This document shows positions 49,275 through 59,392 of a stretch of DNA of 64,000 nucleotides, piece after piece (positions within the stretch are counted from its first letter, which is position 1; each line of letters starts with the position of its first letter). Made by a program: the position numbers and the translations under genes. Source of the stretch: Lota lota (taxonomy: Eukaryota > Chordata > Actinopteri > Gadiformes > Lotidae); assembly GCA_026745465.1 (NCBI GenBank), contig JACYXH010000781.1, positions 733,501-797,500 on the forward strand, in the 5' to 3' direction. A model generated the notes under the pieces. That model was not told the origin of the DNA and ran no database searches. It worked only from the letters and a program-made list of their open reading frames with translations.

Positions 49275-49377
49275 ATGGAAGTGTGCAAGGCAGGCCGGGC
49301 AGTCCTCATGTTCCTGGGTCTCGTCTTGTTTTTCGCTGCCATCACCCTCAACACCCTGGCCGGCCTAGGACCAAATG
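49275..49377 (+). CDS. Membrane protein A, exon 1
   Basis: ATG in the context ggatcATGgaa. It encodes MEVCKAGRAVLMFLGLVLFF and ends CCAAATG before GTGAGC (phase 1). A cctcag lies directly upstream, so an untranslated 5' exon is possible. Confidence 0.78.
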
Positions 49378-52300
49378 GTGAGCCCATGGGTGTGTGTGTG
49401 TGTGTGTGTGTGTGTGTGTGTGTGTGTGTGTGTGTGTGTGTGTGTGTGTGTGTGTGTGTGTGTGTCTCTGTGTGTATGGTGTATTTATGAAAGGTGTATA
49501 ATGTAAGTATGGCGTATTGGATGCAGCTAGAGTATGTGAAGAGAATGTGTAGTGTATGATATATAGTGTATGTAGTGTATGTGTAGTGTATGCATGTATG
49601 CAGTATGTATGTGCATGATGAAAAAGTATCAGACATGTCCAGGTATTTTGATGTATGTAGAGTGTGTTTTTATAGTACAAGATGTATGTCTGATACATTG
49701 TTAAGTATATCCAGGTATTCTGATGTACGCAGTGTGTGGTGTATGTTGTATATTTATGATATATTATACCTGTGCAGGTGCTTTGATGTACTGTATGTAT
49801 AGTGAATATATGATATATTTAGATGGTAGTGTTTGGTGTATTTAGTGTATGATATACCTGTGCAGGTATTTCGATGGTGGTGCATGGTGTATTTAGTGTA
49901 TGATATACCTGTGCAGGTATTTTTGAGCAGAGTACGGAGGACGTGACCCTGAAGTACATGACACCACTGACTCCGGCCACCTGGTCTCTGTTCGTGTGGG
50001 ACTTCATCTACGTCTGGTTCTTCTTCATGTTCCTCTACTTCCTGGCTGGCCTCTGCAGAAGGTAGAGACCCCTAGAGACCAGTGGTAGACCACTACCATC
50101 ACGTCACGTAGGATTCACTACTCACGTACCTTTAGAAGGCTTGGTGTGCTCTCTGTGGGATTTTCCTATATTATTATATTACGTTCGTATTCTAAAACCT
50201 ATTCCTGACAGAGAATACAGCCACATCGGAGAGTGAGAGCACAAAAAGTTCTTGCTTCATTTCAAAACATATCTTTGACAAGATGTCAGATTTGAGCCTC
50301 TACCTATGTGAAACGTTTTTGACAAGTCTACTGTGTTTGAAACATTTACACAGTTACAACAGTTATAGCATGTGAGAGATTTTTCAATGTCTCACAATGT
50401 CTGAAAATCTTGATATGTCTTAGGCCTGAAGGTTGGGAACACCTAGTCTAGTTACCGGCAATCACTGTTTAAAAAGCTTCTCCTGTTTTAATACTTACTA
50501 ATACTGTGGGGTTCTCTGCTGGTCTGAACCATCCTCTGCTCAGAGTCTGCTACTGGGCTCTGGCCAGTCACTCCTCTCTCTATCTGGCAGAATGTTCTGG
50601 AGAGAGAGAGAAGAGTTGGCAAGGTCTTCTCAGCGTCTGCATAACCATTGCTGTTTGTTGGCTTCATACCATCGTTTTCAGCACACTGTCATCTGTGTTT
50701 TTACCATTTCAGTTCCTGTTTTGTGTCGTGCGCCTGAATCACTTTAGCTAGCTGCCGATGTCTGGATCACGTCACAATCATACGTCAGCATTATCCAAAT
50801 GTTTTTATGCCTTTCATGTGGTGACACTACAACACAATACCGGTGTTTTCAAATCCATCCACTTGGAAGAGCCTCTTAGAAATAGAATCTCAGCTATCAG
50901 TGGACGGAAACAATATTTTAGTGTAGAAGGAACAAAAAAGGTGTGTTTTTGAATGTATCTGTATTATTGTGAAGGCAGTAGGCTAACCCAGGACCTGGTA
51001 GAATAACCCAGGACCTGGTCGTAGTAGACTAACCTAGGATCTGGTCAAAGTAGACTAACTGAGGACCTGGTAGACTAACCCAGGACCTGGTAGTAGTAGA
51101 CTAACCAAGGATCTGGTCGAAGTAGACTAACCCAGGACCCGGTAGTACTAGACCAACCCAGGACCTGGTAGTAGACTAACCAAGGACCTGGTGGATTAAC
51201 CCTGGACCTGATAGTAGTAGACTAACCCAGGACCTGGTAGTAGTAGACTAACCCAAGACCTGGTAGTAATAGACCAACCCAGGACCTAGTAGTAGACTAA
51301 CCAAGGACCTGGTGGATTAACCCTGGACCTGGTAGTAGTAGACTAACCCAGGACCTGGTAGTAGTGGACTAACCCAGCTGTTGTTTCCTCAGGGGCGTGT
51401 CTGAGTGGATGTATGCCACTCCTGCTGTGCTGCCCTATGGGTTCCACGCCATGCTGGTCATCAACATGAGTCTCAACATCACCTGGCTTTTTCTCTACCA
51501 CCAAGAGTAACACACCTTAGTGTTAGGTTTTTAGATAGATATGTTATAGGTTATTACATAGATATGTTGTTAGATTATAGGTTGCTAGATATGTTGTTAG
51601 ATTATAGGTTATAACCTAGATATGTTGTTAGATTATAGGGTTAGGGTTAGGGTTATAACCTAACACTTATTTAAGTTACAACTAGATTTATGATCTTCTT
51701 CACGTTACACTTTCTTGATGTGCAGTACTGATTTCACTGACTTGATAAAGCTTATATTGTGTGTGTATGTCTATGTCTGTGTTTGTCTGTACATATGTGC
51801 GTGTATCTGTATCTTTGTGTCACTGTATCTTAATGTGTGTGTGTGTATGTGTGTGGGTGGGTTTCTCTGTATCTTTATTTGTGTGTGTGTATGTGTGTGT
51901 CTCTGTATCTATACATGTGTGTGTGCGTGTGTATCTGTGTCTGTGTGGCACTGTATCTATATGTGTGTGTGTGTGTGTGTGTGTGTGTATCTCTGTATCT
52001 ATATATGTGTGTGTGTGTGTGTGTGTGTGTGTGTGTGTGTGTGTGTGTGTGTGTGTGTGTGTGTGTGTGTGTGTGTGTGTGTGTGCGTGTGTGTGTGTGT
52101 GTTCCAGGATACTGCTGCCAGCGCTCATCATCTCAGCTCTGATGTCGTTGACGGTCTACCTGCTGCTGTTCTTCTCCTGCCAGGGCCTCAAGGTGTATGG
52201 AGCCTGGCTTCACAAGCATCGCCGGGTGGACCTTTGGATCTTCAGGGTCCTGGTAAAACAACATCAATGAATCTATAGGCTACATACTGCAGCTTCTGCT

Positions 52301-59100: not shown

Positions 59101-59392
59101 ATTATTTATAATGTGTCATGTAGCACTTCTCTAAATGTAAGTCCACATGGTGAGAAGAGAAACTGACCTGCTAAGGTGTGTTTCAGGTGTTGTGATGGTG
59201 TTGGCCACCTGCTTCAGCATCTCCAAAACCGTCTCCGGCTGTTTTCTTAACGATGACCCCTCTGTGAACTCTCCGGTGGAGTTCGACTTGACCTCGGAGG
59301 GATGTAAGACCGTCTGCCAGGCGGAGAACAACAAGACCAAACACATCAAGCCTGTTGCGAACATCCTCAAGAAAATACTCGGCAACGTTTGA
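56038..59392 (+). CDS. Eight-pass membrane protein B, paralogue of A, seven coding exons
   Basis: I joined exons 56038-56194, 56845-56956, 57357-57470, 57563-57707, 57877-58025, 58343-58482 and 59187-59392. All have GT-AG borders. The phases 1,2,2,0,2,1 are identical to gene A and give 340 codons plus TGA. Exons 3, 4 and 5 (114, 145, 149 nt) have exactly the lengths seen in A. About eight membrane segments are visible (for example AAIALATITYILCEVVHCLA, CWIMINIWTLAWMLHAIANL, SIILTLILIFIVTWFVLE). The signature VQNGVAVFCCWSL matches VQNGVALYAVWGS of A. B has a longer polar N-terminus and a hydrophilic, Cys- and Lys-containing C-terminal tail of about 45 residues that A lacks. Exon 2 is 33 nt shorter than in A. 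Function is unknown. Confidence 0.82.
56845..56956 (+). CDS. Membrane protein B, exon 2
   Basis: Of three nearby AGs, only gaatgtgtcag at 56844 keeps the frame. It gives (A)TFPLEVSMDTWAENCW and WTLAWMLHAIANLFQ. The other two give a stop codon or a shifted, unlike peptide. The junction creates an NAT glycosylation motif. Confidence 0.75.
57080..57330. repeat. 22-bp GAGATGTTAGGCACAGCAGGGCT minisatellite in intron 2 of gene B
   Basis: About eleven units of gatgttaggcacagcagggc and variants, ending 27 bp before exon 3. Confidence 0.88.
57357..57470 (+). CDS. Membrane protein B, exon 3
   Basis: Acceptor ggtgtgtag, donor GTAAGA. It encodes SVVGRLSCNPEIHSPLFFLI and SMFRMSGIIHWSR. Confidence 0.83.
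57563..57707 (+). CDS. Membrane protein B, exon 4
   Basis: Acceptor tggttgcag, donor GTACAC. It encodes DLVGALLSRWLVVVCSFSTL and QINHPAQICWTRYL. Confidence 0.83.
57877..58025 (+). CDS. Membrane protein B, exon 5
   Basis: Acceptor tgtccacag, donor GTACGA. It encodes VQNGVAVFCCWSLMEALVVL and SIILTLILIFIVT. Confidence 0.85.
58343..58482 (+). CDS. Membrane protein B, exon 6
   Basis: Acceptor cccctcag, donor GTGAGA. It encodes FVLESIMFPRLLCYTFTVHP and GLGAMFTASYHVQTMAANTI. Confidence 0.85.
58490..58975. repeat. CTTAACTACACCTTACC repeat in intron 6 of gene B
   Basis: Imperfect repeats of acttaactacacctaacc. Several contain catctactgtggtgagacac, which is the exon 6 end plus its donor. Confidence 0.85.
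59187..59392 (+). CDS. Membrane protein B, exon 7 with stop
   Basis: Acceptor gtgtttcag. It encodes VVMVLATCFSISKTVSGCFL, then a polar tail with four cysteines in all and ILKKILGNV before TGA. Confidence 0.84.

Follow-up and report, generated by a model that had tools for sequence, protein, structure and literature searches.

In a 64,000-nucleotide (nt) stretch of DNA from the fish Lota lota (C781:733501-797500 in the searched assembly; hereafter the window), two adjacent head-to-tail genes, which we call A and B, encode multipass membrane proteins. Over most of its length, A proves homologous to a bacterial family spanning several phyla, one modeled member of which has the TSPO fold. The joint reading that we favor, with a probability of roughly 0.6, is that A and B belong to an eight-helix TspO/MBR branch, in which A would be a hydrophobic-ligand protein and B a diverged copy beside it.

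Both genes lie on the + strand, with A spanning positions 49275-54591 and B positions 56038-59392 of the window, and each comprises seven coding exons, giving products of 312 and 340 amino acids, respectively. The initial annotation, made from the DNA letters alone, had described paired genes with seven exons and the same intron phases, equal lengths of exons 3-5 and a common VQNGVA block. These features are all borne out: the phases are 1,2,2,0,2,1 in both genes, all 12 introns have GT..AG borders, exons 3, 4 and 5 measure 114, 145 and 149 nt in either gene, and the VQNGVA block is found in both proteins. The G+C fraction at third codon positions (GC3) is 0.788 in A and 0.762 in B, and that of the introns 0.424 and 0.437, respectively. 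The two proteins are related, with 25% identity over 258 residues in a BLASTP comparison (expectation value (E) 1e-13). Exon 2 of gene B has two in-frame acceptors, at 56845 or 56860, the latter yielding a 335-residue protein, and the true start of B may be an internal methionine. The eight membrane helices anticipated earlier are present in a modeled bacterial relative and can be mapped from it onto A, with the last helix of B being unsure in this mapping (mapped range 263-323).

Kinship with long bacterial TspO-like proteins

A search of the whole fish genome (867 contigs, 575 Mb) with A recovered the exons of two more genes, C (contig C212) and D (contig C752), and a search with D recovered A and C again. 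The exons of C measure 100, 145, 114, 145, 149, 140 and 152 nt and those of D 94, 145, 96, 145, 146, 140 and 146 nt, with an uncertain acceptor for exon 3 of D and the same phases as A and B in both. C and D are the less diverged fish copies, and both retain the motif ITPAGWTF.IW..IY. The last intron of gene C (about 5150-6110 of the fetched stretch L132) contains tandemly repeated units that look like the acceptor and first part of exon 7, and hence might offer decoy acceptors upstream of the one chosen. The canonical tspo of this fish is a separate gene (C376:1215119-1215774, three matches over the Pfam cut-off); a weak TspO_MBR match of 21.5 bits (E 0.06), below the cut-off, was also seen at G000:C98:163029-163226 (L131).

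Family searches in Pfam with all four fish proteins and in NCBIfam with A and B gave nothing above cut-off, PDB sequence searches gave nothing useful, and none of A, B, C and D matched PF03073 (TspO/MBR) in Pfam at E up to 10. In exon 2 of gene A, the block TPATWSLFVWDFIY resembles what we take to be a hallmark of the long "tryptophan-rich sensory proteins" of bacteria. GTDB genomes were scanned with a degenerate DNA pattern for a signature of this type, which gave at least 119 loci with 120 open reading frames (ORFs), of which 112 were complete and 200-420 residues long; the 108 of these with 225-290 residues were used to build a profile. An alignment was made from 64 of the 65 rows chosen at <62% identity, one with a long N-terminal extension being omitted. 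The profile matches residues 11-275 of A with 27.4 bits and gives 75.1 bits for C and 87.8 bits for D, to be compared with a best score of 5.2 bits among 1000 shuffles of A and B that preserve the hydrophobic pattern by being confined to 10-residue windows. B scores -11.7 bits and fails on its own; it is placed in the family only through its sequence kinship to A, C and D.

Comparison of alignments by hhalign connects the four fish proteins with the 64 bacterial rows at E 1.3e-20 over 235 columns, and A and B alone at E 2.2e-6 over 164 columns. The bacterial proteins themselves reach the Pfam TspO_MBR family, with 19 of the 64 matching at E up to 1 and the first member scoring 30.3 bits against a cut-off of 24. 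A six-frame Pfam search at E up to 1e-5 found a TspO_MBR match in a long frame (249-318 residues) in 6 of 36 genomes, and at the same threshold canonical TspO in two further genomes of the 36. The one bacterial relative that was modeled has the TSPO five-helix bundle and eight membrane helices in total, and in the structure comparison the TSPO rows stand clear of all others. A five-helix TSPO bundle is predicted for A by carrying this model over through the alignment. The suggestion that the pair might be related to TspO is thus upheld by profile scores, hhalign, the fold match and the Pfam matches of the bacterial members. No family common to the 64 bacterial members emerged from an NCBIfam scan, and relatives were not found in viral contigs.

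To place the fish proteins we used a tree of 49 rows, including 42 bacterial ones at <50% identity, and a second one of 25 rows, including 21 of these. The 49-row tree puts A-D on one side of a branch (support 99/96) and splits fish, canonical and bacterial long proteins, though with midpoint rooting only and long branches flagged, so that it is silent on which two of the groups are closest to each other. Against the bacterial profile, the canonical sequences reach 6.8, 3.3 and 0.9 bits, and it is the profile scores that link the fish proteins to the long bacterial ones.

Divergence of B and origin of the pair

B is a fast-evolving paralog of A, C and D, its branch in the 49-row tree being 3.89 changes per column long as against 0.9 for A, 0.6 for C and 0.58 for D. 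Conservation in at least 85% of the 42 bacterial rows singles out 34 positions, of which 26 are retained in D, 23 in C, 14 in A and 6 in B. Twelve of the 34 are fixed by the search pattern; on the other 22 (hand count, start methionine included) the figures are 15, 14, 8 and 4, leaving the order D, C, A, B unchanged. The helix 2 signature TPAG..F.IW..IY, which for the bacterial proteins was imposed by the search pattern itself, is kept by C and D, survives in part in A as TPATWSLFVWDFIY and is lost in B, which lacks the helix 2 proline and tyrosine as well as the helix 3 asparagine and tryptophan.

The initial annotation had held that the intron structure shows an old tandem duplication. The homology of the two neighbors stands, but the phases and the VQNG block characterize the family as a whole, being found also in C and D. 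In all four genes, introns 2-6 sit at identical alignment columns, implying that the architecture predates the A-B pair and is by itself no proof of tandem duplication. The trees join A and B weakly, with support of 98/71 in the 49-row tree and 65/51 in the 25-row tree. In the latter several alternatives are not rejected by the approximately unbiased test (p-AU), namely A+C (0.352), A+C+D without B (0.354), B+C (0.202) and C+D (0.093). Hence a sizeable minority chance must be given to B being a separate, more ancient family branch that has remained next to A rather than its tandem duplicate, as A is nearer to C (43.6% identity) and D (39.9%) than to B (25%) and a grouping of A, C and D to the exclusion of B is among the unrejected trees. 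Against this, A and B lie head-to-tail with about 1.4 kb between them, are joined in the best trees, and alone in the four-protein alignment have a tail motif in common, SPVE[IF].LT, that C and D lack in full. The genome likewise offers no close second B: a search with B at E up to 0.1 returned only its own seven exons, although it also missed A, C and D, so that equally diverged copies would escape it, and no clear B-like exon was seen in the sequence retrieved near C and D.

The long branch of B and its retention of so few conserved positions would also fit a gene that no longer encodes a working protein and drifts without constraint, leaving only A, along with C and D, of importance. Differences between A and B are in fact spread almost evenly over the codon positions (0.63/0.54/0.58), but they are probably saturated at such a distance. 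We consider this decay unlikely, as B preserves seven open exons, six GT..AG introns and all the phases of the family, has a GC3 far from the G+C of its introns, and is followed by an AATAAA after its stop codon. It is highly improbable that A and B form a small transporter- or receptor-like family unrelated to TspO, with their likeness a general membrane-protein effect, in view of the margin of A over the composition-preserving shuffles, the intact TPAGWTF.IW..IY and 75-88 bits of C and D, the hhalign match, the separation of the TSPO rows in the fold comparison and the Pfam matches of the bacterial members.

Proposed function and genomic setting

What bears on the function of A-D is kinship, from which we infer the hydrophobic-ligand role. 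TSPO binds porphyrins and, in mammals, also cholesterol, its action as receptor, sensor or transporter being unsettled (PMC8243069), and in Rhodobacter the genes for bacteriochlorophyll and carotenoids are down-regulated by TspO (PMC4237140). In the reading that we favor, A and B would consist of an N-terminal five-helix bundle of the TSPO fold followed by three further membrane helices. A would be a cell-membrane protein whose bundle holds a hydrophobic small molecule of the porphyrin, sterol or isoprenoid class, and might serve, as has been suggested for TSPO, as a sensor, a carrier or a docking protein for partners, with the added helices perhaps providing membrane context or oligomer contacts. 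B would have arisen beside A, probably by tandem duplication, and would have lost most of the TspO-like signature residues while gaining a longer tail, changes that point to an altered ligand, or to a role exerted via A or other partners instead of the same binding. A, C and D are likely ligand binders and B is likely altered. A more far-reaching scheme, which we regard as a long shot, is that an eight-helix lineage apart from canonical TSPO, which fish have in common with bacteria, serves them as a second TSPO system for the sensing or movement of lipophilic pigments, or of precursors of these (retinoid, carotenoid or porphyrin), with B as a pocket-less regulator partner of A and the pair forming a heteromer.

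The wider surroundings of the long tspO genes in the bacterial relatives are not conserved, which weighs against the link to lycopene cyclase described next: no common Pfam family was found among 143 neighbors at 36 loci, where CBS was the most frequent (4 of 143) and lycopene cyclase accounted for 2 of 143. Lycopene cyclase was also sought with six queries, one being the gene of locus L064 itself, in 119 fetched stretches around long tspO-like genes, and matches were found in nine, some from Bacteroidota. At L034, L097, L073, L064, L116 and L009 the cyclase lies upstream of the long tspO on the same strand, at distances from an 8-base overlap to about 100 bases; at L113 it is about 590 bases away, and L091 and L087 have partial matches, the tspO of L087 being cut at the stretch end. 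Such a cyclase occurs anywhere in the genome in 18 of 36 genomes examined, whence the rough chance expectation is about 0.1 loci in 119, with some of the nine coming from related species. A photolyase neighborhood was also considered, but photolyase is not among the 25 families listed of 197 for the neighbors at the 36 loci. A photolyase-tspO cluster is reported in Mycobacterium kansasii, with no statement of whether its TspO is of the long kind (PMC9861118).

The coordinates of the pair are collected in Table 1. Runs of GT/CA occur on both sides of gene A and inside its introns.

Table 1. Features of genes A and B, in positions of the window
Feature	Position	Strand	Remarks
Gene A exon 1	49275..49377	+	start codon; first helix
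Gene A exon 2	49917..50061	+	carries TPATWSLFVWDFIYVW, counterpart of the bacterial FTPAGYxFSIWGLIY signature
Gene A exon 3	51393..51506	+	carries N111..W114, conserved helix 3 positions
Gene A exon 4	52108..52252	+	
Gene A exon 5	53092..53240	+	VQNGVALYAVW, helix 5 of the TspO-like core
Gene A exon 6	53751..53884	+	helix 7 region, C-terminal extension
Gene A exon 7 and stop	54443..54591	+	last helix, then short tail with end SPVEIALTQRRVFL
AATAAA, candidate polyadenylation signal of gene A	55667..55672	+	pattern only
Gene B exon 1	56038..56194	+	
Gene B exon 2	56845..56956	+	alternative start 56860; degenerate family signature SMDTWAENCWIMINIW
Gene B exon 3	57357..57470	+	R118 and G121 in place of the conserved helix 3 N and W
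Gene B exon 4	57563..57707	+	
Gene B exon 5	57877..58025	+	VQNGVAVFCCW
Gene B exon 6	58343..58482	+	
Gene B exon 7 and stop	59187..59392	+	Cys/Lys-containing tail beyond SPVEFDLTSEG
AATAAA, candidate polyadenylation signal of gene B	59449..59454	+	pattern only

Elsewhere in the window, ORFs on the minus strand at 234-5343, with RSHSYxRA-type blocks and SPGRIRHLVHSVQKLFAKSHSLE, presumably belong, as judged by eye, to a DLGAP (SAPAP) synaptic scaffold gene; no copy of four of these ORFs turned up in the sequence retrieved around genes C and D. Near-identical direct duplications run from 11465 and 19134 onwards (offset 7669) and, in a second instance, at 16718-17297 and 21460-22037 (offset about 4741 bases). 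They agree at 97-99% in 300-nt samples, with the same ORF starts up to about 12826/20495, and may be recent segmental copies or a matter of assembly. Long minisatellites start at 60946 (16-nt unit) and 33767 (14-nt unit), with at least 41 and at least 37 overlapping register copies, respectively. Scans of the window for tRNAs and Rfam families were empty.

Comparison with canonical TSPO and other relatives

TSPO, the function of which is disputed, is widely used as a target for drugs and imaging. The four fish copies, ranging from the well conserved C and D to the heavily remodeled B, provide a natural series for the study of ligand-binding residues and helices, and their presence suggests that relatives may persist in fish in which tspo is knocked out. 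The analysis also supplies a likely fold for genes left blank by Pfam, NCBIfam and PDB sequence searches.

The initial annotation had spoken of an undescribed family. It is indeed uncharacterized and eight-helix, though perhaps not wholly undescribed. Among the matches listed from the open-access literature, the passages name no eight-helix animal family, the nearest being one sentence by which two unannotated zebrafish proteins join pSLC.TSPO at a clustering threshold of 0.8 (PMC9333335). These proteins, given there without accession in the passages, may be orthologs of the A-D family.

Canonical TSPO/TspO proteins (PF03073) have about 160 residues and five helices, whereas A and B, at 312 and 340 residues, have three extra helices by mapping. 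With a profile built from three canonical sequences, the whole-sequence scores of A-D are all negative, and 19.7 bits is the top score among the bacterial long proteins. A CRAC (cholesterol recognition amino acid consensus) motif is found in the mapped helix 5 of C and in none of A, B and D; it is also lacking near the C-terminal ends of two bacterial canonical sequences, and hence does not define the superfamily. The closer likeness is to the bacterial long TspO-like proteins of about 255 residues, presumably those annotated as "tryptophan-rich sensory protein", which show homology to most of the length of A, C and D and have eight helices in the modeled case. Their genes are without introns, unlike those of the fish. 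In helix 5, a proline conserved in the bacterial long proteins is replaced by glycine and a conserved glycine is lost in all four fish proteins, whereas the conserved alanine (151) and asparagine (155) of this helix survive in C and D, with other residues in their place in A and B.
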